From Terebella lapidaria (Eukaryota; Annelida; Polychaeta; Terebellida; Terebellidae), in assembly GCA_949152475.1 (NCBI GenBank), contig OX424563.1, positions 20,371,001 through 20,435,000 on the forward strand: 64,000 nucleotides of DNA. Reading direction: 5' to 3'. Under the pieces are notes generated by a model. It did no database searches. It saw nothing but the letters and a program-made list of their open reading frames with translations, and was not told where the DNA came from. Within the stretch, counting starts at the first letter, position 1, and each line of letters starts with the position of its first letter. Made by a program: the position numbers and the translations under genes. Positions 32,204 to 52,643 of the stretch are shown here, in pieces.

Positions 32204-32442
32204 CTAGAACATCGCCATGTACCATGTATCGTACGATCTGAACTCGCTTTCAACTCCGGCAGAGAAATCCGTCAAAGTACAAACATTGTTCTCGACTGAG
32301 AAAAAGAGGCAGTTTCCAGCTGAGGTGCATAGTTCAGCACACCGAACACGGCTGACGCCGTTGATTGTGTTGTTTATGCCCAGGTAAACGTGAATATCCT
32401 GGCTGCTGAATTTCTTGAACTTTACGTCAGATAGTCGCTCGG
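32204..32442 (-). CDS. PAN/apple-like exon of copy A
   Basis: Acceptor CTCATTTCAG; ERLSDVKFKKFSSQDI, then RVRCAELCTSAGNCLFFSVE and NNVCTLTDF, ending DTWYMAMF and TAG. The C-x3-C-x5-C-x9-C spacing fits the core of PAN/apple domains. 78 codons. Confidence 0.72.
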
Positions 32443-35400
32443 CTGAAATGAGAAGTAAACAAAATGACAGGAAAACAAGCCTCGAAATGTTGATAATAAC
32501 TTTCTGTACTCAAATGTTACGTATTGTCACTCACGATATTTTTTTTCCCTACAAGAATGAAGTGATTCATAGATCTACAAAGTCAGGACAAGCTACAAGA
32601 TATGATATTGGATAACGGACCCTATTTTGTTTGCTCGGAATACTCAATAATGGGTATTGATTATACGTCTATTTACAACATGCATGGATGTATTCGCCTC
32701 TAAGTCCGATGTGCCGCCAATGAGCAATATTATCCTGATACTTTCCAAAACATAGTTGCTAGACCCTGATAAGGTGGGCTCGCTGTTCTTCCGTATCCAA
32801 TAAAGATTAAAATTGTGTTGTTGTGAACCAATTGACTAATGGCCAACATATATATATAGAATCGATATAGAACCGATTTATAGAACCGCTATATTCTCCA
32901 TGATGATGCTGAAGTGAAGTAATGCATAATGTGAACAAATGGACCATTCCACGTGGAGTCCCGCCAGATATTTCTGAAGTCTGCAAACGGAAACAGTTTT
33001 GGACCAATCAGAAGTGAGGGTCTTCGAATTAGTTTCAACCGTTTTGTGCATAACTTCAAATGATGAACGCGCATTTATATGCATTGCATATACTTCAAAT
33101 AAAGACTCTAACACGACTCGTATGGCATGAATATATGATATCAGCAAAAATATATCTGCAAAATAATACCTGCTGCGGTTGCATGCTGCCATGGAAGCGC
33201 GTGTTCTGCCCTCAGTAGCCATTGGTTCGTTTTGATCTACGGACATTACCGAGTAACGCCAGATATTCATGAGATCCACAGGGGCTCTGTGAAATGCTCC
33301 ATTGTTTACATGTGTGTTTGTGCAAGACATGTATCGGTTTACCAATATAATATACCGATCGTGTACTAGTTCGTTCAATCCATCGAACTTATTTCTGAAT
33401 ATATTTTTCGTTATGTTTTATGTCAATACATCAAGACAGTTGCGTGAAAACTTTTGCAACTTCTAATGTCAATTTTTTTTATGATTTTGTGGTTTTAGTG
33501 GAGGAGGTGCACTTCCCACCTGCCTTTCAGGCAGGTATGTCACTTCAAATGGTTATGTTTTCAGTAGACGAGGGTCAGAACAGCGCAACCTACATGGGCC
33601 GTATTTTGTAATGATAACATAATACCATGCCCTATGGCGTTGGTTTGCCTTGAGGTTCTATCGAAATTTCCGGGATAAACATAATGCCTCGTAATTCTTA
33701 CATGTCTTTTGCGAAACAGCTCATATGACATTGACCGGTATCACCTAGTTTTGCGTATATTTAACGATCATTCGACTCATTATGACAAATCTATGGCCTC
33801 TCTATAAAATTTTATTGTGGGAAGGGAATCAATCGGATCGGAATTTTTTCAAGTGATTGCCAATATCCGTTCCTATGTGAAAACATGATGGATGATATTT
33901 GCAATAATATACTGTAAAATTTGTCTGATCGTCCCGTATGGCAATTTCTTTAGCAGTTCAGTACAATTAGCAGATGAGTACACACAGTTCAGTGTATAAT
34001 GTAGTGATGCAGGTACCAGTAATAAACACCTTACTATGGTCGAGATTTGAATACCAGTATGAACTGGAACACGAGACTGCGACAATAAAATAAACTTCTT
34101 AAACGCTCTCTGAGATTCTTATGGGGGAAATACTCTTCGACTGGGGGAAAAACCTGGTTTCCAAGAGAAAAAATTGAACGCGTATTCTACAGAGCTCGAC
34201 GTAAATAATTCAGCAAATTAATATAATCTGACGAATATTTTCGTCGAATGGAGCAAAAATTTAATCACTATCCCCGATTTACGTGAACATCAGCGTGTCG
34301 GCTGGATTTGAGAAAAAATACATAGCTACGGTGTGCATTCAGTCAACCGGGTAGCACTTTTGTCCCTACTGTCGAGCCATCGCTCACTTCTCGCGCTTAT
34401 ACTTTCTGTCACTGCCTAATTTTCTTTGTTTCGGAGCATTAAAATTAGCCCATTTGTTTCGTTCCATTTTCTGACTGCATCTTTACTTATAACAACCGTT
34501 TGCACTTATTTTTCGCTGTCCCACAACGAGCTAATTTTTCGCTAGGAAAGTGCGGAATGTTGGGAACCGTGGTACTGATCGTTGGCAATGTGTGAAAGTC
34601 AGAATGGGTTCCGAGTTCAACACCACCGAATTCCACATTGATATTTCGATGCTTATAGCTTTTCTGACGGTACTCAAATTTTGTATACACTTTTCATATG
34701 GGCATATATTGTCGTCTATGTGTACACTATTGACCAAGCACAACTTTAAGAGTATATTGAATTGTGGCCAAATTGAAAACGGTGCTGAATTTTTATAAAC
34801 ACCTTGCTATTTTTGTTGGGCGTACTCGATCAGGAACTACTATTCATACGAAATACCAATTGTATTCGTCCTGCATGGACATCGTATGTGCGCACGAAAT
34901 TGAATTGAAAACAGTACGTGCTGGAAATGAGCGCGCTATTGACTTCTCTTAATCGGGGGGAACTGGTGCTTTGCACCTGGTATGATTCTTGTAAGGGAAC
35001 TTCATTTTAACAATTATGTTATACTGTAATCATCATGTAATCATGTAATTTTCGCGTATTTCCGTGAAAATTAAACATACCGTTAGCCATATTAGACAGT
35101 ATGTCTCAAAAGACAATGCTACGTGTTCGCAAGTGCGATCATGTTTTCTCAAATACCGAACAATGGGATACGTTGAATGCACATGGCAGAGGACTTCAAT
35201 TACAATTAGACCGTCGATCAATCAGTGATAGAATAAAACCACACGCATCTACCTGTTGTTAGATTCTACAGGAAATGTGTTAAATCGTTGACCATTATTA
35301 AATACACAAACAGTGTGGTTGATTATCTGAGGAAATGTGAATTAGAGTCAGACAAAAAGCCATTTCGCAGCCTGTATTTGTGACAGGCGTGGGATCATAG

Positions 35401-36422
35401 GGCGTGAAAGCGCTTTTATACGTAGGCCCTACTTTACGTCGGAAATTTCCCGTGGTCCAGCAACCGCGAAATATTTATACCGCGAAATAGTTTTAATACC
35501 AAACCGCGGAATTTGCATCACGCCAAATATTCCTGATTTACAGTAAAAGAAGGGATAAGTGTTTCAATGTGGTGTTATGATTAAAAACAACATATTGTGA
35601 TTGAAAAGAATAGTTACGTGTTGCTAGTAGCTGCTCTGGTGTCAGGTCAGTCAAGAGACTCCCCGCGTGCTGCGCCGGCCCCGTGCATCGGATCGCATCT
35701 GGGAATGTGACATTCCCGATCCCGCTTGTACTTGCCAATCTGGCCCAAATCAGCTTCCGATCACATTCGAAAGCAACCGGTGCAGTTACACCTATTTTGA
35801 CCTTGAATTCGTTCAGGTTGGATCGCATGAAAAAGTTTGGTAGGCTGGTCAGTGTAGCAGTTCTGAGTTCCAAGGTCCTGCCAATTGAATACGTTTTTGC
35901 CAGGCTGATTTCGCGGATAGGACCGGTAAGTTCAAGGAACTGTAGATTAGGTGCCCACGAGACATCTGGGACCTCTGTGAAGAAATCGCCCACTCTGATC
36001 TCTACCAAATTCAACAAAGATGGAGTAACGTATGGTAGGCTGCGTAGATTGTTCGGGCTGTTTATTTTCAGGATCCTCAGTGCTGGCAATCCTCCCAGTC
36101 TTGCTGCTTCGACAAAAGCGATCTGGTTGCCGAAGAGGAACAGGGTTTCCAGTGTGCCACCAGATGACGTCACGTTTGGGAATTCCAGGAGGAAGTTCCC
36201 TGTCAAGTCGAGATGTGTCAAGTTTGGAAAAATGGGGAAAGTGTCAATGTACACAATTGCATTATCTTTGGCGTCAATGCTAGTGGCACTGTCGGTGACA
36301 TTTAGTGGAAAACTTTGCAAACCTCGGTCGGAGATGTCCACAGGTGAACAATATGTAATGCGCACGCCGCAAATAATAATCCAGAGGTATAATAATCTGT
36401 GAATATTTTTTATCACCTCCAT
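32204..36422 (-). CDS. Secreted LRR-PAN protein gene, copy A
   Basis: Exon 1 (36422-35618) has ATG for MEVIKNIHRLLYLWIIICGV, a signal peptide. It then encodes four or five irregular leucine-rich repeats (LTHLDLTGNFLLEFPN, LETLFLFGNQIAFVEA, LRILKINSPNNL, LQFLELTGP) and an LRRCT-like end (FECDRKLIWARL, IRCTGPAQHAG, LLTDLTPEQLLAT). A donor at AC|GTAACT is phase 1. The next recognised exon (32442-32204) starts with two bases completing that codon and encodes a PAN/apple-like module. Joined, the mature protein is about 325 aa, secreted, with no membrane anchor. Extra middle exons are not excluded. Without splicing the LRR frame stops at 35538-35540. Likely a recognition or adhesion protein; ligand unknown. 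Paralogue: 44541-52643. Confidence 0.66.
32596..32670 (+). mobile_element. Severely truncated LINE tail in LRR-PAN A intron
   Basis: GATATTGGATAACGGACCCT through GGGTATTGATTATACGTCTA; ends at the same base as the tails at 28501 and 41162. The corresponding place in copy B (50165-50180, GATTCATAGATCTACAAA) lacks it. Confidence 0.55.
32671..35537. other. Intron of LRR-PAN copy A
   Basis: 33490-34090 is a diverged counterpart of 50750-51725 in copy B (shared TATGTCACTTCAA, GTGGGAAGGGGATCGATC-like and GGTTTTAGT blocks). A hairpin with stem ACCTGCC/GGCAGGT lies at 33518-33536 and has a counterpart at 50768-50780. No further exon is certain. 35460-35520 has three CCGCGRAAT repeats. Confidence 0.45.
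35618..36422 (-). CDS. LRR exon of copy A
   Basis: 805 bp, 268 codons plus one base. The upstream ATG at 36546 would add 42 residues that are not kept in frame length in copy B, whereas MEVIKN plus a hydrophobic run is kept in both, so I prefer 36422. Potential N-glycosylation: NVTDS, NLTH, NVTSS, NVTF. Confidence 0.75.
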
Positions 36423-37290
36423 TGTGATATATGGCTGCATGCAAGTATACCGAAGAATATATCCTGGAAGGAGACCGAAAGGTACCATCAGGATTTGTTC
36501 TCGACTGATGCAGCAAGCGGGCGATCTTTCAGTGCGGCATGTTATCACTGGCGATGAGATGCAGGGTAGTTTGGTTTTGTGGCATAACTTGGAACCTATT
36601 TAAGTGACGAGTGGGCGGGGCTGGGATCGATCCATCCAACAAGCTGGCTACAGTTGCCTGCAAGCGTGGCATACGATAATCCCCATACAAACTTGCGACA
36701 ACTTGTTGATGCATTTTTCAGACTAAAGTTACCTAACAAAGTCTCACCTGCAACAATTCAATTGTTATTCCCATTTCTCGATACACTTGAGGATGTAACA
36801 TCATGACTATTGTGCAACGCTCGGTAACAATTAGTGCAGTTCGTCAGCAAACATACCAGCGCCTTTATCTATGGTATGGAATAAATCATACAGCTAGTTC
36901 TATTTGGAACATGCATTGTTATGATGAACGCCACAATTCATGCAAAGTCGAGGAGACATTTAGGCGCGGTGACACTTAGTATAAATACGACACCATTTTA
37001 TTTTTCTAAAGTCATTGATCGTCCCACGATATGGCTGTAATGACATAATAACACGCACAACGGGGTTCGATGATGCCCCCTTTGGTTGTGGGTGTTTCCC
37101 TTCAATTTTCAGAGCACTGTCATTTTAAGTGATAATCATTATTATTTTCTCTGATATATTCAACTTGCCACTGTCTGAAACACGAAATATTGCTACGAAT
37201 ATACACTACTGATCACCATTGACGAGGATTGACGTGCAAAGTCGCCCGCATGCAGTTTTCTACATTTCCAGACATTTGTCTACTATTGAC
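36423..37290 (-). promoter_or_regulatory. Upstream region shared by both LRR-PAN genes
   Basis: The first 200 bp upstream of the ATG are highly similar to 52644-52830 (CTTGCATGCAGCCATA, GGATATATTCTT / GGACATATTCTT). Similarity resumes at 36900-37130 versus 53225-53490 (GAACGCCACAATTCAT, CGCGGTGACACTT, CGCAACGGGGTTCG). This is the expected place of the promoter; a TTAAATA motif near 36600 in copy A is not kept in copy B. Confidence 0.4.
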
Positions 37291-37299
37291 ATTATTACT

Positions 37300-38370
37300 C
37301 GCTCCGATAGGGGCGCCCCGATAGGGGCAGAGGGTATTGTAATTGGGTCTGTCCGTTTGTATGTCTGTCTGTTTATTTGTCTGTCTGTCCGCGCGCATAT
37401 CTCAAAGGAGAATGGTCCGATCAACATGAAACTGATAAAGATGAAGCGGTATGTCAGTGGCTCGGTCCTCCTCGAATCTGGTCAAAATCGGACGAAAACT
37501 GTTGCCATGGCAACGGAAAATGTAAAAATCAATAATTGACCATAACTTCGGTTCTAATCAAGATAATTTTTTAAAACTAATTTTGTATTTTTCTATGGCC
37601 CATTCCTGATCATCTGATATATGGCCCGTGGTCGTACGACCCAAACTCTCCATTATCGCCCGATGTCGAAAAATTGGGGGTCACGGTTTCGATTTTTTTT
37701 GGCCAGCGACGTTTCAGTGCAAATGTCTGCGCTCATAACTCAAAGGCAAACGGTCTGATCGATTTGAAATTTATAGGGCACGAGTGTTATGGTAGTTGCT
37801 CAGTCTCTTTAAAATTTTGCCAAAATCGAATGAAAATAGTTGCCATGGCAACGGAAAAAAGAAAATCACATAATTGGCTCTAACTCCGGTTCTACCTGAT
37901 ATTAATCTTTCCAACTAATTTTGTATTTTTCTTTCGCCAATTCTCAATCGTTGTACGACCGATGGTCGTATGACGGAAATTCTCCATTATCGCCCGATGT
38001 CGAAAAATTGGGGGTCACGATTTCGGTTATTTTTGGCCATCGACGTTTCAGTGCAAATGTCTGCGCTCATAACTCAAAGGCAAACGGTCCTATCGACTTG
38101 AAATTTATAGGGCTGGAGTGCTGTGGTAGTGGCTCAGTCCCTTTCAAATTTTGTCATAATCGGGTAAAAACGGTTGCCATGGCAACGGAAAAAGAAAATC
38201 ACATAATAATTTGCTATAACTCCGGTTCTAGTCAATATTAAATTTTCAACTTATTTTTGTTTTTTTTCTTTGGCCAATTCCCAATCGTATGGCGTACAAC
38301 TGATGGTCTTAAGACCAGAACTCTTAATTATCGCCTAATTTTAGTTACTAAATCTGAAGGGCGAGGGTCT
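37300..38370 (+). repeat. Repeat family A, three ~336-bp units with RFX-type palindromes
   Basis: Three tandem units share TGTCGAAAAATTGGGGGTCA and CATAACTCAAAGGCAAACGG. Each contains a perfect GTTGCCATGGCAAC palindrome (37501, 37839, 38173), which matches the symmetric X-box bound by RFX factors. The leader at 37335-37400 is a GTCTGTCTGT-rich run. Confidence 0.68.
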
Positions 38371-38839
38371 GCAATCTCTGATTGTCTCGTTTTTTCTGTA
38401 ATAATAGCAGCGCGAATAAAGTTATCCAAGTCTTGTTTCTATTAAAGTGATATTGGGAGAAAGTTATGGAAACATATAAGTTATATATCTGCACTTGTAT
38501 GCCCAAAACAAATGCTCCTTTCTCATTGATTTCGTTGCGAGTTCCTGGTGAAGATAGTTCGAAATCGCTGACACTAACCGCCATTCTCGGAGCTTTGTAT
38601 TTCTTGATGCGATGCAATTTCAGCTTAGCCGTATGTGTTTCAACCAATCGAGCGTAAACTAGGTCAGACCAGAGTTAACTCTGAGGGACGCACAAAACGA
38701 AAGAAAACTGGCTGCTGGTACTGTCATATGCTTGATTTATTCGTCTGAATAACAAGCATAGTTTGTTTTGTAACCTATTTTTTTAGGACCACAGGCATAG
38801 TTGTAATTTATATAATGTATTTACATAGTTGTAATTTTT

Positions 38840-39790
38840 ATACCTTCGACCTAATTTTCAAGGTCACAGCACACAATGGCTAGAATCTAGCTTATTATCG
38901 ACTTTTCCGCTTACAAATCAATTGAGGATTTATAGGAAATGATACAAGCTGAATATTATAACGACATTTACTTCGACCTTTGACCTCATTTTCAAGGTCA
39001 GAGTACAAAATGGTAATATCTCGCTCATTATTGACTTTCCAGCTCAGGAAACAATTGTGAACATTTAGAAATGATATATGTTGAATATTCTGATGACCTT
39101 GATTTTGACCTTTGACTTCATTTTCAAGGTGAGAGAACAAAATGGTCAATATCTCGCTCATATTGACTCCACAGCTTAGGAATCCATAGTGAACATATAG
39201 CGAATGATATATGTTGAATATTCTGATGACTTTGAATTTGACCTTTGACCTCATTTCCAAGGTCAGAGAACAAAATAATAATAATATCTCGTAATATCCC
39301 GCTTATTATTGACTTTACAGCTTAGGAATCCGCAGTGAACATATAGGGAATGATATATGCTCAATATTTTGGTGACCTTGAGTTTAACCTTGACCTCATT
39401 TTCAAGGTCAGAGAACGGAAAAAGGTTAATATCTTGCTTATTATCGAATTTACAGCTTGGGAATCAATTGCAAACATACTGGAAATGGTACATGCTGAAT
39501 ATTCTCATAACCTTGAACTTGACCTTTGACCTCATTTTCCAGGTCAGATCACAAAATGGCTGATATCTCACTCATTATCGACTTTACAGCTTAGAAATCA
39601 ATTGTGGACGTATAGGAAATGATATACACCGTATATTATGATGAACTTGAATTCAACCTCTGAACTTAGTTTCAAGGTCATAGCACAAAACTGCTACCCA
39701 CATGCTTATTATCGATTTTACAGCTCACTAATCAATTGTGGACATATAGGAAATGATATATGTTGAATATTCTCACGACATTGTCTGGTG
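38840..39790 (+). repeat. AAGGTCA satellite array, second site
   Basis: About seven ~130-bp units as in 14230-15120 with TTTGACCTCATTTTCAAGGT, CTTACAGCTTAGGAATC-like and ATGATATATGCTGAATATT blocks. Perfect TGACCTTTGACCT at 39239-39251 and 39520-39532. Ends at TTGTCTGGTGACC...AGCCCTTGGGCTAA like the other copies. Confidence 0.7.
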
Positions 39791-39949
39791 ACCTTCATTA
39801 GCCCTTGGGCTAATTTTTCTCATTTCTACATCAAAATAATTTCATCGCCAATATTTGCACATAATTGAAACTATTAGGACGAAAGTCCCTAAATTGTTGT
39901 TGCTAGCGACGATTTCTAGTGTTTTCATGACTGGTTAAGCTTCAGTCAC

Positions 39950-40390
39950 TTGAAAACCGAATTCCACATGGACCACCCAGGACCAAGAGATGTCTATATC
40001 CAGGTTGTATCGGGTGTCAAGGAATAGACATTCCCTGTTCTTCCATCACCACCTCGGACCCAACATGACAGTACTACCAGTGAACACGGATCCAATGACA
40101 GCAACGCCTCGGACCAGCACGGCAGTGCCATGGAATGACCCCGGACCACCTCAGATCCAACACTGTGTTTAGAGGGATAGTTCTGGGCCACATAGGATCA
40201 TCCCATATGAGCTACGAACATTCCCGATCCGTCACGCCTCCAACACGGTCGTTTCTGGTCCACCCAGGATTGGGGACCACCCCGGCAATTTTAAACAGTC
40301 TAAAACCTCCTCATTGGTGTCCTCGACCATCCAGGATCACCAAGCATCGTCACGGACAATCACTGATCCGAGGGTGGGGGTGTCCGTGAT
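39950..40390. other. GC-rich GGACCACC-motif segment of unknown nature
   Basis: Irregular repeats of GGACCACC / GACCATCCAGGATCACC and TCACGCCTCCAACACGG occur every 50-70 bp. Base composition differs from its surroundings. Open frames on both strands lack recognisable domains. It could be a decayed minisatellite or part of an element. Confidence 0.3.
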
Positions 40391-40676
40391 GTGTCTGGTA
40401 TTATAGTAGTAATTTGGATACAAATAGCCAGTATGAATGATTGAATCAATATTGTTGTGTTCAATAAGGCACTCTCTGTGCCAAAACGGACAACACAAAA
40501 AAGCAGATACCGATATATATCCTTGGTTATTTTGTACCGTGATTTACCATAAATTGGGAAATTCATTCAACACATCCGTTCAACTTCGTAGTGATGACAT
40601 TGTAATGTTTCAAGTTATGTGATCTTATTCTCTGGTGATAGAGAATTTTTCCATAGTCAATTTCCCTTTTCTAAGC

Positions 40677-40925
40677 AGCAACATTCCTATGTCACCGGCA
40701 TATGGTGTATTTGTTTCTCAACTTATACGCTATTCCAGAGCTGGTTGCAAATATGAGGACTTTGTCTATCGAAGTGCCCAGCTAGTCTCTAAACTGCTGC
40801 GACAAGGATATGTTTTATCAAGACTTATAGCTGCGTTTAAGAAATTCTATGGACGTCATCATGATCTGGTTGATAAATACAGCAAAGCCATGTCTGCCAT
40901 GCAACTAGATTTATTTTCATGTTAA
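40677..40925 (+). pseudogene. LINE reverse transcriptase, C-terminal fragment
   Basis: Frame NIPMSPAYGVFVSQLIRYSR, then KLLRQGYVLSRLIAAFKKFY and GRHHDLVDKY, ending in TAA at 40923. The YGVxxSQLIRYxRA and KFYGRxxDLVxKY motifs are typical of the end of ORF2 of non-LTR elements in marine invertebrates. The polymerase core is absent, so this is a 5'-truncated, dead insertion within a copy of the 31.7-kb unit. Its tail is the next feature. Confidence 0.75.
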
Positions 40926-41162
40926 TTTTGGGGAATTCATGACGGGTGCCACTAGTGGGGCAGGAAATGCTCACTCTTTCCGGAACACCTGATTTCACCT
41001 CCTAATGGCCATTTTTGGTGGTTCATGAGTTTCCCTGTCATTTTTGTTTTCTCTCACTTCGTATGCCTGATATGACTTTCTGTCCCCGGACTATGAGATT
41101 GGATAACGGACCCTGTTTTGTTTGCTCGGAATACTTAATACTGGGTATTGATTCCACGTCTA
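40926..41162 (+). mobile_element. 3' tail of the LINE fragment
   Basis: Contains GGGGCAGGAAATGCTCACTC, TCTCACTTCGTATGCCTGAT and TTTCTGTCCCCGGACTATGA, ending ACGTCTAT; two shorter copies elsewhere in the window share this end. Confidence 0.68.
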
Positions 41163-41569
41163 TGCATTTTATCGATTATCATATTCGTCGATACCTTGAT
41201 CCGGTATTGGGATATTGATGACTCTTGAGATTTGACAGTCAGTCAATTGTAGTTTGAATGTTATCTTTGTGATGCACATTTATTTTTTCGGTACCTTCAC
41301 AATTGTCATTCTCATGAACTATGAAAAAATGCAAACACAACAACTATGCGTGCATAGTGTCCAGTAGGTTGGCCAGAAGAAAAGAAGTGTAATATTTCCC
41401 GCAATGTTACGTTGTGTTCCCTGGTGCAGGATAGTGTGGATGTTATGCAACACTAAAATACATGTGTTTAAATACAAAGTAAGTGGGGGTATTCTTCTTT
41501 TGCCGTGTGAAACTTGTTAAGAGTCACGAAACACAACATTGGGTTTGGGAGCTGAAGCGAAACATTTCG

Positions 41570-41760
41570 GATGGACCGAAAATTAAATTTTATAGAAGTT
41601 TCAATCGAAATTGAGTATCTAAATGCGAGTGTAGACAAAATCCAAACACATTTTATTCACCGCATCCACTCATTCTACCTACTTTGTTCTATGGAAAATA
41701 TCTTCAGAATAAAAGTTATTGTCCGGGCTTGGCCCGGTACTATTATATTTGTTCTAAGTT
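41570..41760 (+). other. Third copy of the GYLDASV exon-like unit
   Basis: IEVSIEIEYLNASVDKIQTH is related to the candidate exons at 25560-25699 and 31725. It is followed by CACCGCATCCACTCATTCTA and a TATCTTCAG, matching the sequence before the FIELHHKID micro-exon at 24763-24830 on the other strand. An apparent one-base shift early in the unit suggests decay. Confidence 0.35.
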
Positions 41761-41969
41761 GAACTAGTTTCGTTTGTGAGGTCTCCGCAGGGACGGGCAG
41801 CGAGCGATCCCACGGTGGACATACGTTGTACACGTATTGTGCGGGTTTTGCCCCGTTACCAGTATTCTGTGAACGATAGTTTACAATGTCATACCAATGT
41901 GATACAGCGGGGCTTGCAAATGCGGTTGGTTCGTCCATCTGTCCAGGCTATTGCATGGGTAATAGAATA

Positions 41970-42160
41970 TAGTATGGTTAATAGAACATACCTGGTTTAG
42001 GATTAAAGGGCCGAAAACAGCTGTACAGACAATTTGGGTATCGTTGGATGATGAATTACCTCAAGGGCGCGATTTTGATGGATGTATTGTCGGCATTCGA
42101 GCCGTTGAGACGGAAACGCATGCAAACAAGCTGTATGTGGTGAACACCTTATTTTAGCAA
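41970..42160 (+). CDS. Possible terminal exon (GCIVGIRAVETETHAN)
   Basis: An open frame from the TTTAG at 42000: IKGPKTAVQTIWVSLDDELP, then QGRDFDGCIVGIRAVET and VVNTLF followed by TAG near 42157. Composition is protein-like. A preceding frame 41785-41950 (DIRCTRIVRVLPRYQYSV) ends at a GTAATA but the gap is too short for a normal intron. The end of this frame is duplicated at 42738-42816. Confidence 0.3.
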
Positions 42161-42318
42161 ACAATCTCTGATTGGATACATAGATTTACAAATAATTTAT
42201 TATCACAAACCATAGTATAGCAATGAGTTTAATAATTGCCACATGGATTTCAACAGGATTGTCAAAATATTCGTCATACGACATGTTAAAAAATGTCTCC
42301 CGGACAAATTTTTGCTGT

Positions 42319-42518
42319 TTAAATTCCTTCTATCCTGTAGCTGGTATTGTATAAGGTAGTGAACAATAGCGCAATTTTGAGTATGGTTTGAAAAAGGTAA
42401 CAACATTTATAATCTACCGTACACTGATGTTCATTTTCTTCAACGTAGCAGCCAAACTGAATACGTTGTATCCCGTCAGATGACACGTTGTTGACATCTC
42501 GATATTCAAGATATTCTA
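42319..42518 (-). CDS. Coding-like exon (RIQFGCYVEENEHQCTV), copy 1
   Basis: After an acceptor-like CTACCCAG on the minus strand, the frame reads EYLEYRDVNNVSSDGIQRIQ, then FGCYVEENEHQCTVDYKCC and continues to a stop at 42319. Like the PAN exon, it starts with two bases completing a codon, so it could follow the same phase-1 donor. Copy A of the gene cluster has a decayed relative downstream of its PAN exon (INTVSPDEMQRIPID, near 32040). Domain not recognised; duplicated at 43060-43176. Confidence 0.38.
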
Positions 42519-42599
42519 CTGGGTAGTATCCTCCGTAGCCCTATCTTCCCTGTCGCCTAACAGAAATTGATGTTAACTTACTTCATAATATGACCATTA

Positions 42600-43900
42600 T
42601 TACTACAAACATCAAAAATCTACTGACCAGAACCTTTACCTTGAGCTCAATAATAAATCTTTCTTCACTTGAACTCTTATTACTGTGGCCGATAATAGAC
42701 TTAATGTCATTTCTTCGGCTACAGTGTTAACTTATTTATGTATTGTCGGCATTCGAGCCGTTGAGACGGAAACGCATGCAAACAGGCTGTATGTGGTGAA
42801 CACCTTATTTTAGCAAACAATCTCTGACTTGATACATAGATTTACAAATAATTTAATATCACAAACCATAGTATAGCAATGAGTTTAATAATTGCCACAT
42901 GGATTTCAACAGGATTGTCAAAATATTCGTCATACGACATGTTAAAAAATGTCTCCCGGACATACTTTTGCTGTTTAAATTCCTTCTATCCTGTAGCTTG
43001 TATTGTATAAGTTAGTGAACAATATAGCGCAATTTTGAGTATGGTTTGAAAAAGGTAACAACATTTATAATCTACCGTACACTGATGCTCATTTTCTTCA
43101 ACGTAGCAGCCAAACTGAATACGTTGTATCCCGTCAGATGACACGTTGTTTACATCTCGATATTCAAGATATTCTACTGGGTAGTATCCTCCGTAGCCCT
43201 ATCTTCCCTGTCGCTTAACAGAAATTGATGTTAACTTACTTCATAATATGACCATTATTACTACAAACATCAAAATTATACTGACCAGAACCTTTACCTT
43301 GAGCTCAATAATAAATCTTTCTTGACTTGAACTCTTATTACTGTGGCCGATAATAGACTTAATGTCATTTCTTCGGCTACAGTGTTAACTTATTTATGTT
43401 AATTTTAATCAATGTTTACGTATTGAGCCCAATAATGAATGTTTCTTGGCTTAACTGTTTTTGTTGTGGCAAAAATTAACATTAAAACTAATGTTAAATT
43501 AATGTTCACTTAGCCATGAAATCACTACTGGGTAGAACCTTTAACTTGTTCAGCCCAATACTGAATCTTTCTTGTCTTAACTTGTCTATAATGTGGTTAA
43601 TGATATACTTGAAGTAAAACTAATATTAATTCATTCGGGTACAGCCATGAAATCCCCACTGGGCAAAAGCTCTACCTTGTTGAGCCCAATAATAATTGCT
43701 TCTTGTCTTAACTAATTGATTGTGATCAAAAATAGACTTAACTAGCATAACAAAATGTTAACTTATTCGATTACAGCCAGAAATCTACTGGACAGAACCT
43801 TTACATCGTTGAGCCCAAAAATAAGTATTTCTTGTCGTATATATTTTTATTGTTGTCAATAATAGACCTAACTAATGTTAATTATCTCGGTAATAATATT
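42600..43900. repeat. ~125-135 bp minisatellite, about five units
   Basis: Units contain CAGAACCTTTACCTTG, GAGCTCAATAAT / GAGCCCAATAAT, CTTTCTTGTCTTAACT and AATAGACTTAA. They occur near 42618, 43276, 43526, 43656 and 43789, increasingly diverged to the right. Confidence 0.62.
43060..43176 (-). CDS. Coding-like exon (RIQFGCYVEENEHQCTV), copy 2
   Basis: Second copy made by the 657-bp duplication. The peptide core is unchanged; downstream a small length difference alters the frame, so the two copies end differently. Confidence 0.33.
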
Positions 43901-44234
43901 AATCTAGTGCCATTTCCTTTCATGGTACAAGTTATTAGAGTGATCATAGTTGTCAAAGTGGGTATTTTAATGGTCGTAATAAGTAATCATGGTAACTAAT
44001 TCCTGATTTCTTCATTATGAAAAAAAAAGTTTGTTTTTCTGAATAAGGCTGTGCCATTACAACATCCATCGAAAACTCCAACCCCTGAAAATAGGTATTC
44101 TATTGGTCGTAATACGTAGTCCTGTAAACAAATTATTACTCATTTGATCATTCTGAAAAACAATAGGTTTTTTTTTTAATTAAATGTCATCATCATTCAT
44201 CCAAGTCTCCCACCCCTGTAACCGACTGATTTTG

Positions 44235-44430
44235 TCACAAAATGTGTCGCCAATCGGCTACTTTGGGCATAGGTGTCATGATTTTACCATAAGACATGTC
44301 CCCATAAAATATCAGAATCGGTTCCGATTTACATCCTGTAGAGCGTTTACAAGAGAGTGTTTGCAGCACCGGCTGTGGACGTGGCGCGACAATCGGAAAT
44401 CCATAGTATCCAGCGAACTTTGTTTGGGGG
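44235..44430 (-). repeat. Dispersed repeat shared with the SAM-gene intron
   Basis: Minus strand TATCCCCCAAACAAAGTTCG onward matches 16555-16690 plus strand. It interrupts sequence that in copy A runs continuously from the PAN exon to 31980. Confidence 0.55.
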
Positions 44431-44540
44431 ATACAATGGTACAAACAACCAAAGCATATACGATATTATTTCAATTTCGACTCCTGTGCAATACTGGTAT
44501 TTACACGATTTCTTCTGGGCGTATCAACGTGATAACACCT

Positions 44541-44779
44541 CTAGAACATTGCCATGTACCATGTATCGTACGATCTGAATTCGCTTTCATATCCGGCAGA
44601 GAAATCCGTCAACGCACAAACATTGTTCTCAACTGAGAAAAAAAGGCAGTTTCCAGCTGAGGTGCATAGTTCAGCACACCGAACTCGACCGACTCCCGTG
44701 ATTGTGGTCTTTATGCCCAAATAAACGTGAATATCCTGGCTGCTGATTCTCTTGAACTTTACGTCTGATAGTCGCTCGG
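44541..44779 (-). CDS. PAN/apple-like exon of copy B
   Basis: ERLSDVKFKRISSQDI, RVRCAELCTSAGNCLFFSVE, NNVCALTDFSAGYESEF, DTWYMAMF, TAG. Same length and cysteine spacing as copy A; acceptor CTCATTTCAG. Confidence 0.72.
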
Positions 44780-47700
44780 CTGAAATGAGAAGTATACACA
44801 AAATTAGCCCACAGGCTAAGACAGGTTACCGGACAATATATGTTTTATATTTTCGATATTAGCCATTTTGTCTCGTGAACTTGAAAATCAGGTCACTGGT
44901 CAAATCCAAGGTCACGAGAATATACAGCATATATGTATAATGTCTCGTATATGTCCACAATTGTTTGCTCAGATGTAAATTCAATAACAAGGGAGATATT
45001 AGCAATTATGTCCTATGACCTCGAAAATGAGGTCAAAAGTCAAAATTAAGGTCCTCGAAATATTTGGCATACATCATTCCCTATATGTGCCCAATTGATT
45101 CCTAAGCTGTAAAGTTGATGATAAGCGAGATATTAGCCATTTTGTGCTCTGACCTCGAAAATGAGATCAAAGGTCAAATTCAGGTCATGACAATAATCTG
45201 CATAAATATATCATTTCCTATACATTCATAATTGATTCATAATCTGTGAAGATAAGGAAAATAAGGACAAAGGTCAAATTCAAGGTCACGACAATATTCG
45301 GCATATATTATTTCCTATATGTTCACAATTGATTCCTAAGCTGTAAAGTCGATAATTAGCGAGATATTAGCTATTTTGTCCTGTGACCTTGAAAATTAGG
45401 TCAAAGGTCAAATGCGAGGTCACGAGAATTTTCAGAATATATGATTTCCTAAATGTCCACAATTGATTGCTAATCTCTGATCTCAATATTAAGTGAGATA
45501 TTTGGAAAAATGTGTCCCATTATAAAGCATAGGAGAATTTAACATGGGAGCTTCCATTTGGGCCGAGTTCAGGCCAAAATGGCCCACTTCAAATGATTCA
45601 AGGGTAACGAAACTTATACACATCACAGGGGTACATATGAGGAGTGGTATGCATCAATAAGAAAAAACTGAACACATTTTAAGAAAATGACCGTCAAAGT
45701 GCAAAAATTGGCCATTTTTCGTCAAAAATGGTCGCCATTTTGGAAATAAAAACTAAAATAACCTCCCTCTCAGAATATTTTTAGGCATTTTTGTGCAAAT
45801 TTTCAGAAAGATTCGACCATAAACCTTGAAGATAAAATTGTTTACAGACGGACGACGAAATGTTGATAGAAATGGTATGTGCCGTATGTTGATCACACAA
45901 GAATTAAAGAAATAAATGATTCGAGAGAGGTTATTCAAGTTATTCAAACACACAAGGCATGCGTCCGTGTTCATGTTTATTCGGTAACCAAATAGATATG
46001 AATTTTCGATATAGTTGGCGGCCATTAACTACCTGTTTGGAATTTTGCCGTTATAAATTTGATCAAACCCTCGTCATTCAAACGATTGACAATACGAAAA
46101 AAACACTGATGCAGTGAATATGCAGTTTTCACTGATGCAGTGAATATTTCGTATTAATTGTGGATTATCAGAGACAAAGACAATATGAATCACTAAATCT
46201 CGCTGGTCAGTCCGGATGAATATCGATTGGTTTAGTTCATGTCTGACTGAACTATGTAGTGGATATTTGCAATAGCCGTATTATGGCAATTCGGAGGTGA
46301 TACGGCAATTTGTAGCTTCTTGTATGGATGGTAATAGGCAGACACATGCATTATAATCTGAAGCGCCAAGTCTGTGTTCATGTGCATGGATGATAATATC
46401 ACCATGCTCTAAATCTTCTACGAGGCACATCACATATCAAATTAAAATTACACTGTGATAAGTAATATGATCTTTTAATGCGTCAGTTGAAGATAATGTA
46501 AATACCTCAGTGGCAGTCTATTAAGATCCATAACCCCCAAGTGTTATTTCTATTGCGAAGAATCCTATATATGTGACTCGCATTGGTATTGATATTCATT
46601 CGGCACTTTATTCTGTTAGTGGTGCATTGAATAACATGGTTCGTTAATAGTGTACTAAGTTCAAGAAATTCTTGAGTTTCGAAGACGAAGCTACCATTTT
46701 CCACGAATTTCGATCAGGATAATGTGGACTTTCACATCTCTTACCAAACCAATAATTTCGAATAGAAATAAGTTCAAACAAATGTTCACGATTAAGGATA
46801 ATTCCCGCGTTCTCCAGCATTTACACGGAAGCTTCCATATTACGGAAGCCGACATGTGACATGCGCCTAAAATTTTGTCTATGTCTTTTCCAGCAAAAAG
46901 CTAGCACGCTCGAACGTGGAATCATTTAACACTATCACGTTCGCACGTGGAAACAGTTAAGGCTATTGCGTTCACACGTGGAAAGTCCGAGGTTACCACG
47001 TTCACACGTGGAAATGCTTCCACGTTCGCACGTGGAAACTTCGGGAGCTATCACGTTGGCACGTGCAAAGATTTGGGTGTGGTAGCATCAAATGCTTTCA
47101 CGTATGAACGTGGTAGCTTTGAATCTTTCTACGTGTGAACGTAGAAACCCAATTCTTTTTACGTGCGAACGTGGAAAGGTATAAATGCTTCCACGTGTGA
47201 ACGTGGTAGCTTCGAAACTTTCTACGTGTGAACGTGGAAACCTACATCTTTCTACATTCGAACATGATAGGTTTGAAAGTTTTTACGTGCGAACGTGAAA
47301 GCATATCATGTTTCCACGTGTGAACGTGGTAGCTTTGGACTTTCTACGTGTGAACGTGGAAACCTAAAACCTTTTTACGTGCGAACGTGATAAGTTTTAA
47401 AGTTACCACGTGCGAACGTGATAGCGCTAAATGCTTCCACGTGCGAAAGTGGTAGTTTTGAACTTTCTACGTTCGAACGTGCAGGGTTTTAAATAGAAAA
47501 AAACACCAATTTTTTTCCCGCACATGTCACCTATGGGCTTACAGATACACCAGCTCAGGGGCGGATCAAGAATTTTCTCATTGAAAGGGAGGGTTGGGGT
47601 CAGTTTGGATATTGTAAATTTTCTTGGAAAAAAAAACGCCACAAGCCCCCTATAAAAAAAAATTGGAATTCAGTATTTAACATGGTTAACCTTAGTATCT

Positions 47701-50700
47701 AAAATCATTAAATGTTGTATTTGAACCAGAACATATACCTAACGATGAACATGCATCAGTCAAGAGTTAGAGTAAAGTCATTAAAGAAAAGTCAAGCTCC
47801 TTCACTTCTTCGGGGTTTACTTGTTCGGGATGCCGCACAGGTTCTTCCTCGCTACTGGGCTGACTGTTGTGCCTTGACTCTCTTAGAGACCAGTTTAGAA
47901 GGCTACTGCCCTTCTCTATGGCAGGGGGGGGGGGGGGAGGGGGGGGGGCAGTGCCAATGCTGCTAGGGTCAATCCTCAAACCACCATCAAGACGCTGACC
48001 TTGGATACGACGATTTTGTCTTTCCCGGTGGAATGGATATCCCTCTCCTGGATATATTCAGATTATGTCATGTCTGAGGTGATTATCGATGATAATACAT
48101 GCCTGCTGATTGTTTCGCTTGTTAAGGAATCCAGACGCCTATCTGAAATTGTTGACTTGCTGTGATCTGCAGTTCGTAGAGCCTCGGTGCTTACCATGTC
48201 TCCACTACCATGTGAGTGAACATCCGCGTGATTTGCTGCCACTATGTTTAGGCTGACTGATACCGCCTCCGGAATCGCTATGGTCCTAAGAACAAAACTC
48301 CCCATTGTTCGAAAACTAATGAGTTCGAAAATTTGGGGGTCAAGTTTTCGTGACGTTCGAGTGTTCTGAGATTCGAGAGCATATTGTGATGCCAGTTTTC
48401 AATCTTGTTGAACCGTTTTCATTCAAGAGACGTGCCTTGATAACAGAAACAATACTATGAAATTTTACAGCTTTATATTGAATGACAAGGTCAAGGTCAC
48501 AGAAAAGGTCAAAATTGAAAATCTGCAATGAATCTGCTTATATTCATGATTAATATTCCCTATTAATTTGGTATTTTCCTATAGTGAATTCTCCATCATT
48601 TGCTGAATGACCGATGATCGTACGATCGAAATTCCCCATTATCGCAGAGGTCGAAAATGTGAAGGTCTCCAGCTGAAATCACCGATTCGCAATATTCGAA
48701 GTAGTAGTAATTCCAAAATCACTGACGATTGTCGATAGAATATGGAACATAAAGTATGCAGTATAAATCTGGAAGAGAATGCTACGTTTGGGAGGTCAAT
48801 ATCAAGAACTTAGGCTGTGGTCGCGAATATGGCCAAAATAGAAAAATCGCAAGAAGTCTACTGTTATCATGGTTATTACCGTATTGACGCGCATAGAGGC
48901 GCATGCGCCTATAAGCGGATTTTCGCATAGGTTTTGAAAAATATTATTCTTCACATAGAGGCGCATGCGCCTATATCCGGATATAGGCGCACCCCAATAT
49001 TCATATTCAGGCGCACTCCAATATTCACAAAGAGGCATATCCCAATATTCAAGTACAGGCGCACTCCAAATTTCATTTATTGGTCCTGTGTTTGCATATA
49101 AATATTATTAGTTAATACTTTTCCTGACACCGGACACCAGTATATTTATCTCATGACAATCCTTGGTTAAAAGGTATCACGAGATCACCACGTGCATATT
49201 GCCCATTAAAACAATGGAGCACAAGGTGTTTTATGGAGATGGATCAGGGTCCGGATGGTGTTGCATAGGCCCTATCATGTTGTGTTGGGAGTCATTACGG
49301 TGGAGGGAGAGGTCGACCCTGCAGTATACTGAATGACCCTGACTGGATTTGTGGCGGGTTTCTGGCTTGTGTTGAAGTGGGTGATGGTGTTGTAGGCCTA
49401 CTTTTGCTAATGTAGCACAATTGTTTGACCATGTTGTCGTCCTTTATACGCACACCTATAGGCCTACAACGCATTTTCACAACGTGAACTGTGCTTACTG
49501 TGGGCCTTGTACGGTAGACATTTACTCCCCCCCCCCCTCCCCACCTACTCCTACGGCACAATGCAGTAGAGCAACTGACAAGTTCGAGATCCATATGGCG
49601 TGTGCTTTAATTTTCTTTCAAGGAAGTGAACAAAACACACTTTGTGTGGTTTAGACTATCCCGATATATAGGCGCATGCGCCTCTAACTGAATAATGGTT
49701 TTGGGTGGCGAAAATGTCAACTGCTTCACATACTGGCGCATGAGCCTCTATCCGGGTATAGGCACATGCTCACTTATAGGCGCATGCGCCTCTATGCGCG
49801 TCAATACGGTAATGGTTATTTCTCTCATGATTTCTGTATCATTCCATGGCTAGCTCCTGACTATTTGATATGACCAATGATGGTACGACCAGAAACCCCG
49901 ATTATCGCCCAGGTCGAAAATGTCAGGGTCGTCAGCTTTCATTCTAGTAAATAAACCTGGAGGGCGGAGGTCTGCAATGCCTCATCCAAAATCACCGTGA
50001 CAAATGCGTGGTCACCACTGTCAAGTGTTATTTCTTAATGGTATTCAATTTTACTGTTGAAATCCATACCGTGAACAACACCGGGGGCATTTCAGAGTCC
50101 AATCACATACAAAAATAAATATACAGTACAATACACAGTATGGTTTTCCAACATGAATACGAATTGATTCATAGATCTACAAAAATTATATTTATATATA
50201 TTTTCGCTATATTTTGTGTCAGTGCATGACACAAAATGACAGACGTGACCATTTGACGTGTTCAGGTGTCCGGGCCAATGATCAAGTTACGTTGGGATTA
50301 CGATGACGATGAATAAAAATAAAAAATGTGTACTCAGAATGGAAACAATTAAAATCAAACAATTCTATCATGTTGAAGTTATAATAAATATAACAAACAG
50401 AAAAACAACAATATCCTACTCAAAATATAAACATCTTCATGGAGTGTAAAATATGAAGTCCAATCAAATATCACACACTTCTTAACCCACTTCTGAAATG
50501 TATCGTATTTCTTTCAAATCTGTTTTAGATTTTGAGATGTGTATATTTATTTGTGCATCAGGACATTGAGCGATCGTGATGAGAATAAATGACTGACAAA
50601 AGGTGTTGGTAAGTGTAAACATATTAAAATTGCACATGGATCCTCATCCTGGATATCAGAGCCACCTCCATAAACGAGACGTTTCATCAAAGTTCCCAGG

Positions 50701-52643
50701 GAGGCGCACATAGACAAATTTGACGGTATATAATATTGTTGTTTTAGAAGAGATGTGGCACTTTCCACCTGCTTTGCAGGCAGCTACTGACCTGTAGCCA
50801 GAAACCAAGTATGTCACTTCAACTGGTATGTTTTCAATCGAGGAGGAGTACAGGGCAACTCAAACTTCAATAACAGTATGCTGTAATGATAACTTAATAC
50901 CATGCATTATGGCGTCAGTTTGCTTTGATGTTCAATCGAAATTTCCAAGTATCACCTAGCTGTACGTATATTCAACAGTCATTCAGATCATTAAAGCTAT
51001 AATTACTTTTAGAATTGACAAAATGTATTTTTTCCGCAGTAGCTTTGTTTTGTCTATAGAATGAGAAATGGTACAAATTTGGGTCTTGAAATGTGTAAAA
51101 CGTGTCTAAATTGAGTTGCCAAATCAAGATTTAAACTCGGGCCAGTCAATCTCGCATCATTTTTTTCCTCAAAGCCGCCCGCCTTGCGAGCGAGTTCTTC
51201 ACACAGTCTCATGACGTCATTGGTATTTGTCTAGATACTGTGGCAACCGGCAATGTAGGCAGGCCGATCATTCTCTATCCACTGTTTTCATGTACGATTA
51301 ACGGCAATTTTCCGAGTATCTGTTGTCGAACTGTGCATATTTCCTATATATTCCCGACTATCTCGGGATGTACTTTGAAGTTTGCGAGACAAACAAGAAT
51401 CCTAAATTTGACTGATTTTAAAATTGATTCCAACTTTAATTTAAAATCCGGGGCATGTTAAAGAAATTAACTGTGGGAAGGGGATCGATCAGATTGAAAA
51501 GCCTTCACACGATAACCAGTTTAGCGGTTGCTATGTGAATTGTGAACCCATGGTGGATGGTTCACGAAATAAACAAATGTACTGGTCAAAATGATCTGAT
51601 TGTCCTGAATAACAATTTCGTTAACAGTTCCGTACTTTCCAGTGTGTTATATAGCAATACATGTACCAATGAAATATTTTGTGGAAAAGAAACAGAATCA
51701 AAACACGAGACGGCTACAGTAGAATGACACACTAATATGGACTCATTATTCGAAAAAATACGTTATCAGATAGGGGATTAGTGTTTTAAAGTAGCGTTAT
51801 GATTAATAACAACAAATTTCGATGGAAAGAATAGTTACGTGTTGCTAGTAGCTGCTCTGGTGTCAGGTCAGTCAAGAGACTCCCCGCGTGCTGTGCCGGC
51901 CCCGTGCATCGGATCGCATCTGGGAATGTGACATTCCCGATCCCGCTTGTACTTGCCAATCTGGCCCAAATCAGCTTCCGATCACATTCGAAAGCAACTG
52001 GTGCAGGACCATCTATTTTGACCCTGAATATCTTCAGATTGGATCGCATGAAAAAGTTTGGTAGGCTGGTCAGTGTAGCAGTTTTGAGTCGCAAGGTCTT
52101 GCCAATTGAATACGTTTTTGCCAGGTTGATCTCGCGGACAGGACCGGTAAGTTCAATGAACATCAGATTAGGCGCCCATGAGACATCCGGGACCTCTGTA
52201 AAGAAATCGCCCACTCTTAACTCTGTCAAATGAAACAGAGAAGGCGTAACATATGGCAGGCTGTGTAGATTGTTTGGACTGTTTAGTTTCAGGATCCTCA
52301 ACGCGGACAGTCCTCCCAGTCTCGCTGCTTCGACAAAAGCGATATGGTTGTTGAAGAGGAACAGGGTTTCCAGTGTGCCACCAGATGACGTCACGTTTGG
52401 GAATTCCAGGAGTAAGTTACCTGTCAGGTCGAGATGCGTCAAGCTTGGGAAAAAGGGAAAAGTGTCGATGTACAGAAAATCATTGTTACTGGCGTCGATC
52501 GTGGTAGCACTGTCCGTGATATTGAGTGGGAAAACTTGGTAACCATCCCCGGAAATGTCCACGAGTGAACAATGTGTAATGCGCACGCCGCAAATCATAA
52601 TCCAGAGGTACAGTAATCCACAAATATTTTTTATCACCTCCAT
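44541..52643 (-). CDS. Secreted LRR-PAN protein gene, copy B
   Basis: Exon 1 (52643-51839) encodes MEVIKNICGLLYLWIMICGV (signal peptide), LRRs (LTHLDLTGNLLLEFPN, LETLFLFNNHIAFVEA, LRILKLNSPNNL, LMFIELTGP) and the LRRCT-like end FECDRKLIWARL to LLTDLTPEQLLAT. It is the same length (805 bp) and uses the same donor, phase 1, as copy A. The PAN exon (44779-44541) is phase-compatible. The intron is 7.1 kb, more than twice that of copy A, swollen by a repeat-D element, a palindrome minisatellite, family-A repeats and a hAT-like MITE. Predicted mature protein about 325 aa, secreted. Joining is inferred from phase and synteny, not from a transcript. Confidence 0.64.
44804..45857 (-). mobile_element. 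Repeat D / AAGGTCA element inserted in LRR-PAN B intron
   Basis: Minus orientation: CCGTCGTCCGTC-type leader at 45857 (plus ACAGACGGACGACG), then the ATGGCGGCCAT-like block, five or so AAGGTCA units, ending TCCGGTAACC...TAGCCTGTGGGCTA. The flanks GAGAAGTA.ACA.AAAT and CGAAATGTTGATA are contiguous (apart from ~17 bp) in copy A at 32448-32503, so the insertion postdates the gene duplication. Confidence 0.7.
45858..46903. other. Intron of LRR-PAN B with a nested palindrome
   Basis: 46091-46155 starts AATACGAAA and ends TTTCGTATT, with two CACTGATGCAGTG motifs inside. Otherwise AT-rich DNA with no recognised feature. Confidence 0.5.
46904..47482. repeat. Minisatellite of regularly spaced ACGT-N4-ACGT palindromes
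   Basis: Eighteen or so cores such as ACGTGYGAACGT occur at 46937, 46968, 46998, 47022, 47053, 47100, 47131, 47161, 47193, 47224, 47254, 47285, 47316, 47346, 47377, 47408, 47439 and 47469. Spacing is 30-32 bp almost throughout. In the left part the core reads ACGTTCRCACGT, its inverse. Flanking spacer sequence repeats every four units (about 123 bp), giving a higher-order period. It sits in the intron of LRR-PAN B. Confidence 0.8.
47920..47950 (+). repeat. Long G runs
   Basis: Two adjacent runs of ten or more G split by a single A, possible G-quadruplex. C runs at 49526-49540 are the complement type. Confidence 0.6.
48285..48876 (+). repeat. Repeat family A, left part (split by a MITE)
   Basis: Matches 1365-1900: GAAAATTTGGGGGTCA, GACAAGGTCAAGGTCA, AGTATGCAGTATAAATCTG, TAGAAAAATCGCAAG. 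Continues after the insertion at 49820-49990. Confidence 0.68.
48877..49811. mobile_element. hAT-like MITE, perfect 39-bp inverted ends, 8-bp target duplication
   Basis: Ends start TACCGTATTGACGCGCATAG and are identical for 39 bp (48877-48915, 49773-49811), containing the AGGCGCATGCGCCT palindrome. ATGGTTAT flanks both sides (48869-48876 and 49812-49819). The homologous uninterrupted family-A repeat at 1897-1904 reads ATGATTAT once, confirming the duplication. Subterminal AGGCGCAY repeats occur every 20-30 bp. No transposase; the 8-bp duplication points to hAT mobilisation. Perfect ends imply a recent insertion. Confidence 0.85.
49820..49990 (+). repeat. Repeat family A, right part
   Basis: TTCTCTCATGATTTCTGTAT to GGTCTGCAATGCC matches 1905-2045 and the end of 38340-38370. 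Confidence 0.62.
49991..51785. other. 5' part of the LRR-PAN B intron
   Basis: 50165-50185 and 50750-51725 have counterparts in the intron of copy A. Nothing here is a clear exon. The hairpin CCTGC-TTT-GCAGG at 50768-50780 matches the one at 33518. Confidence 0.4.
51839..52643 (-). CDS. LRR exon of copy B
   Basis: 268 codons plus one base, no breaks. The last ~170 bp (51833-52004) differ from copy A at two positions by my count, while the rest of the exon is clearly more diverged and the flanking intron is barely alignable. If unspliced the frame stops at 51786-51788. Confidence 0.75.

Follow-up and report, generated by a model that had tools for sequence, protein, structure and literature searches.

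Several described systems place leucine-rich repeats (LRRs) outside the cell. LRR-only proteins and the mosquito proteins LRIM1/APL1 are secreted or extracellular LRR proteins, and Toll-like receptors combine extracellular LRRs with a transmembrane helix and a TIR domain. In the variable lymphocyte receptors of agnathans, which bear diverse LRR modules and are secreted in some forms, an incomplete germline gene is completed by LRR cassettes, the product carries a GPI anchor or stalk, and diversification is somatic and takes place in lymphocytes. PAN/apple modules are found in factor XI, plasma kallikrein and the apicomplexan protein MIC4. To our knowledge, humoral recognition in annelids has been little described. 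Among the literature matches listed, consisting of titles and abstract openings of mostly open-access papers, none reported an animal LRR-PAN family, whilst term searches of two annelid immune papers returned an LRR receptor and no PAN domain in one (PMC3372519) and neither LRR nor PAN in the other (PMC5117596). The domains themselves are known; as far as these titles and openings go, their pairing, the size of the family and the coupled cysteines reported below are undescribed, in support of the first-pass annotation, which had proposed an undescribed animal family.

The window analysed here (the whole stretch of 64,000 nucleotides from contig OX424563.1 of Terebella lapidaria) holds two LRR-PAN units that, judged from their sequence, are neighbouring duplicates within a larger family. 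This family resembles LRR-only proteins, LRIM1/APL1 and the nematode eLRRon proteins in its extracellular LRR solenoid, and differs from them by adding a PAN domain in its own exon and, in most examined members, a coupled pair of cysteines between the domains. A family profile match and four core cysteines are held in common with PAN/apple proteins, whereas here there is one PAN domain, no protease and an additional cysteine near the domain start that is coupled to the LRR part. Compared with variable lymphocyte receptors, the family has LRR exons that are complete in the germline, a PAN domain and no hydrophobic GPI-like tail. Unlike Toll-like receptors, the window products end in the PAN domain and a stop codon, with no TIR domain and with a highest later 19-residue mean hydropathy of 1.1, which does not indicate a transmembrane helix.

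Both sequence and open reading frames place four exons on the minus strand where the first-pass annotation had put them, in the same LRR-then-PAN order in the two units (Table 1), and its claim that donor and acceptor phases agree was likewise borne out. Exon 1 of unit 1 ends in phase 1 (AACAC/GTAACT), both window donors read ACAC/GTAACT and both acceptors CATTTCAG/CCGA, and the remaining two bases of the divided codon open exon 2, such that the predicted junctions (35618/32442 and 51839/44779) yield the proline codon C/CC in each unit. The predicted spliced product is 347 aa in unit 1 and in unit 2, counted from an ATG that we picked. At a score of 4.0 and with C preceding GT, both window donors are weak, and they are still top-scoring in their scan; reading past them, an in-frame stop follows after 26 or 17 codons. 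An in-frame ATG before the acceptor is absent from both window PAN frames, as it is in 16 of 22 loci overall. The two units are 86% and 91% identical in the two exon blocks, with homology extending over exons and near flanks, and their introns are mostly unalignable apart from one homologous block of 139 bases. A signal peptide, LRRs and a half LRRCT ahead of the intron, with PAN behind it, make up a well-supported architecture for each gene, in which the splicing itself is predicted.

Table 1. Predicted features of the two LRR-PAN units, in window coordinates
Feature	Position	Strand	Basis
Unit 1 exon 1: start codon (ATG), signal peptide, run of short LRRs and half LRRCT cap	35618..36422	-	ORF, sequence, Pfam LRR_4, splice model
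Unit 1 intron, 3175 bases, GT...AG	32443..35617	-	Splice model
Unit 1 exon 2: PAN/apple module, ending in a stop codon	32204..32442	-	ORF, splice model, family profile; PAN_1 below cut-off
Unit 2 exon 1: start codon (ATG), signal peptide, run of short LRRs and half LRRCT cap, ending in phase 1	51839..52643	-	ORF, Pfam, splice model
Unit 2 intron, 7059 bases, GT...AG	44780..51838	-	Splice model
Unit 2 exon 2: PAN/apple module, ending in a stop codon	44541..44779	-	ORF, splice model, family profile; PAN_1 below cut-off
Unit 1 putative signal peptide, about 25 codons, predicted cleavage site	36348..36422	-	Hydrophobicity
Unit 2 putative signal peptide, about 25 codons, predicted cleavage site	52569..52643	-	Hydrophobicity

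Other features of the window include two near-identical short open frames (GYGGYYPVEYLEYRDVNN...) at 42319-42540 and 42986-43198, about 670 bases apart and marking a recent local duplication, and two minisatellite arrays of similar sequence with a 134-base unit (14175-15089 and 38842-39773). A 735-aa open frame on the plus strand (56491-58698) has a lysine-rich start and a HAS-barrel match below threshold, and is possibly a mobile-element gene.

The LRR assignment is carried by Pfam LRR_4, which matched the window LRR exons above the cut-off (E 8e-10 and 8e-8), by LRR_4 and LRR_8 matches in 14 of 14 aligned members (E up to 0.1) and by the LGR4 ectodomain as best solved-structure match to the window LRR exon (E 5e-12; other LRR ectodomains also match), and the tandem LxxLxLxxN repeats of the leucine-rich repeat superfamily are present. 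Exon 1 had originally been read as a signal peptide, LRRs and an LRRCT-like part; the first two stand, whereas the third amounts to a half cap with two of the usual four cysteines. Measured against the four-cysteine LRRCT consensus (PF01463-type, CxC...C...C), which we take as the yardstick, two cap cysteines are conserved and a variable third lies further upstream, and the LRRCT family is absent from the Pfam matches of the aligned LRR members at E up to 0.1. Pfam PAN_1 matches to the window PAN exons were both below the cut-off (E 0.0025 and 0.024). Across the family, with matches accepted at E up to 0.1, PAN_1 was found in 10 of the 15 members aligned (lowest E 9e-7) and PAN_3 likewise in 10 of 15, and a profile of the 15 members found MIC4, factor XI and plasma kallikrein, with best matches at E 3e-5 to 1.4e-4. 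The PAN/apple identity is therefore firm by way of the family, the window copies being weak when taken alone. Structure prediction gave low-confidence models, with a mean pLDDT of 42 for the LRR exon and 48 for the window PAN exons.

A hydrophobic N-terminus was found in all 22 spliced models, each started at a start codon of our choosing, and a hydrophobic C-terminal tail in none of the 22. Five members on C1 reached later 19-residue mean hydropathies of 1.65-1.70, about the usual transmembrane threshold. The products of the family appear to be secreted, given that a clear transmembrane segment or GPI tail is absent, with the five C1 copies borderline.

Searches of the 761.6-Mb assembly (438 contigs) with the window exons and two further members were merged, the best candidates being scored so that all counts are lower bounds, and recovered at least 86 PAN exons and at least 143 LRR exons. 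The family is hence far larger than the two genes first annotated, with about 80 members or more. In 79 of 86 cases the family LRR exon nearest to a PAN exon, counted within 5 kb, lay upstream on its strand; in one case it lay downstream and in none on the opposite strand, and six PAN exons had no LRR exon in range. Uniform placement would give an expectation of 0.16. Extending the distance to 8 kb gave 81 upstream on the same strand, three downstream, one opposite and one with none, and window unit 2, with its 7.1-kb intron, falls outside the 79 closer pairs and is counted at 8 kb alone. As a control, scoring the best 150 of 477 candidates yielded 96 PF00024 matches (three in the family list and 93 outside it). 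A family LRR exon lay within 8 kb of one of these 93, which a profile search identified as the divergent LRR-PAN gene L015, whereas the other 92 PAN exons tested were not near family LRR exons. Family-wide pairing together with this control excludes chance as the source of the association seen in the assembly.

The 86 PAN exons are spread over 15 numbered large contigs and one small contig and form 43 groups, of up to nine exons each, when neighbours separated by less than 60 kb are linked. Sixty of the 143 LRR exons have no assigned PAN exon; among them, L012, L015, L017 and L023 have a divergent PAN domain downstream, and no PAN was found in the stretch examined at L014, L016, L018, L021 and L025. 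The 60 thus include additional family members, and others among them may be LRR genes of another kind or have other partners. Apart from the neighbouring copy, the LRR exons of the aligned members share 21-29% identity with that of the window copy. At C2:45.0 Mb, C14:4.71-4.73 Mb and C8:31.386 Mb, family LRR exons sit in open frames of 493-701 aa with several matches per frame, representing extended LRR arrays that are still followed by a PAN exon. Other clusters of PAN exons, away from family LRR exons, occur at C17:6.57-7.15 Mb and C9:19.83-19.85 Mb and constitute a separate PAN expansion.

Splice sites were scored by simple weight matrices in 22 loci and in 16 later loci, the latter scanned over a narrower stretch. 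The best donor was in phase 1 in 21 of 22 and then 16 of 16 loci (37/38), a count that includes L057, where the LRRCT lies in an extra exon and the scored donor is not the one preceding PAN. The best acceptor supplied two bases in every locus (22/22 and 16/16, or 38/38). In the one exception, L058, the homologous phase-1 donor ranks fourth, and the top acceptor lies inside the domain with the homologous acceptor second, both requiring two bases. In L012, L039, L057 and L075 the LRRCT seems to be split by a further intron. As the 38 loci share ancestry, these predictions show a conserved junction and not 38 independent trials.

Cysteines were counted in 52 members with both exons (22 initial, then 14 and 16 added), a column being defined by a cysteine in at least 15 rows and repeated loci counted once. 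The count left out L046 (LRRCT not covered), L040 and L041 (LRR exons 6-8 kb away) and L014, L016, L018, L020, L021 and L025 (PAN absent from the examined stretch). Of eight cysteine columns, six never become another residue in the 52 members (two of the six with one gap each), including the four PAN core cysteines. The two variable columns lie one in each exon: the LRR cysteine closes the last repeat (PN-x-C), and the PAN cysteine falls where that domain begins (YCYP-like). Both are present in 42 of 52 members and both absent in 10 (W1, W2, L038, L039, L042, L047, L062, L067, L081 and L085), and neither is ever found singly. L071, at C1:12642972-12645613, is one of the members carrying both. 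These states were read from the sequence and are consistent with the alignment, with five of the 10 absences being gaps in the LRR column (a shorter loop or a different alignment). The idea came from the 22 loci and held in the 14 and then the 16 added members, 15 of the 16 on first reading and L075 once its split exon was read.

A tree built with both variable columns removed, which carries long-branch warnings, placed three changes in three lineages, of which two or more are forced by starred branches, and rejected one shared origin (p-AU 0.0015). The coupling accordingly amounts to two to three independent events. A sign test on independent pairs gave p 0.5 with two to three pairs. The simplest reading is that a disulfide probably joins the last LRR to the PAN domain in most examined members and was lost in the window copies. 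Such a bond may be intrachain or between chains; the products of both exons would belong together either way.

The two window copies differ at synonymous sites to a similar extent in both exons (dS 0.255 in the LRR exon and 0.271 in the PAN exon), which fits one duplication of one gene. With dN/dS of 0.37 in the LRR exon and 0.20 in the PAN exon (pooled Fisher p 2.7e-8), both copies look functional; positive selection was not found in the window pair. As for the two-headed recognition molecule that the first-pass annotation had considered plausible, dN/dS between these copies indicates constraint and not diversification. In other close pairs dN/dS varies widely on few changes, reaching 0.97 in the LRR exon of the C5 pair L052-L053. 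Over their final third, the window LRR exons show less synonymous divergence (4/67 sites against about 38/130; p 9e-5), a dip that may reflect gene conversion or constraint.

Taken as a whole, we consider it fairly probable that these are two-exon secreted LRR-PAN genes, in a family of about 80 or more with an interdomain disulfide, whose products have a soluble bridging recognition role. Each unit would encode a 347-aa secreted protein with a signal peptide, an LRR solenoid, a half LRRCT cap and a C-terminal PAN/apple domain, and the family would comprise about 80 or more such genes on at least 15 chromosomes, built up by tandem and dispersed duplication. The cysteine of the last LRR would bond that at the PAN start and fix the modules to each other, with the window lineage doing without the bond. 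The LRR face and the PAN domain would each take a partner of its own, such as a microbial or foreign surface for one and host matrix or glycan for the other, and the protein would act as a soluble bridging molecule. The ligands and the immune use are inferences. We favour recognition of microbes or foreign cells since that is the usual task of large secreted LRR protein families, and our measurements do not single out immunity among possible extracellular roles. More tentatively, annelids may possess a large germline set of soluble LRR-PAN proteins for recognition, as a humoral system that runs in parallel to variable lymphocyte receptors and insect LRIM-type proteins and is independent of both. 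In it, the disulfide would hold a two-sided binder in a fixed geometry, and several lineages, that of the window among them, would have lost it.

A serious rival, though in our judgement an unlikely one, is that the same genes build or decorate extracellular matrix, mucus, tube or cuticle, with the PAN domain anchoring the protein in the matrix. In Caenorhabditis elegans, LET-653 binds luminal matrix by means of its PAN domains, and the eLRRon proteins, which are separate from it, serve the apical matrix (PMC4970718). Purifying selection in the window pair would also suit a matrix role. Against it, some 80 dispersed and clustered copies, with LRR identities of 21-29% to the window copy, are more than structural proteins usually need. 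Use in gamete recognition, or in self/non-self recognition between worms, would draw on the fact that lineage-expanded secreted binding proteins arise in reproduction too, and appears distinctly less probable than a matrix role.

We give equally little weight to the reading that alternative donor use yields both an LRR-PAN form and an LRR-only form reading into the intron. The weak window donors and the hydrophobic residues that end both window read-through tails speak for two products; across 22 loci, however, the tail varies in length between 3 and 76 aa, and close copies alone have its sequence in common. That the LRR and PAN exons are separate genes standing in the same order by coincidence, the outcome that the first-pass annotation had named as refuting its model, is rejected as highly improbable: long window introns (3.2 and 7.1 kb) and the in-frame stops beyond the donors would allow it, but it is contradicted by the ordered pairing (79/86, none on the opposite strand within 5 kb), the homologous phase-1 junctions, the coupled cysteines contributed one per exon, the similar dS of both exons, window PAN domains without a start codon of their own and a read-through tail that is not common across lineages.

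Should the soluble bridging explanation be true, the annelids would gain a secreted binding family of many genes in which two domains are unusually paired. It would carry the testable prediction of an interdomain disulfide in most examined members and its absence from the named ones, and would supply a defined gene set for annelid immunology, or for matrix or reproductive biology.

The mitochondrial genome was also observed in the assembly. COX1 was located by its Pfam family and the other mitochondrial genes were named by eye from translations, giving the annelid-like order nad3-nad2-cox1-cox2-atp8-cox3-nad6-cob-atp6 followed by a repeat-rich stretch, with nad5 and nad1 outside the stretches read. 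Besides the mitochondrial contig C438, a second COX1-like match was located at C417:44633-46450, in a frame of 703 codons when TGA is read through, suggesting a copy that belongs to another organism or has been transferred.
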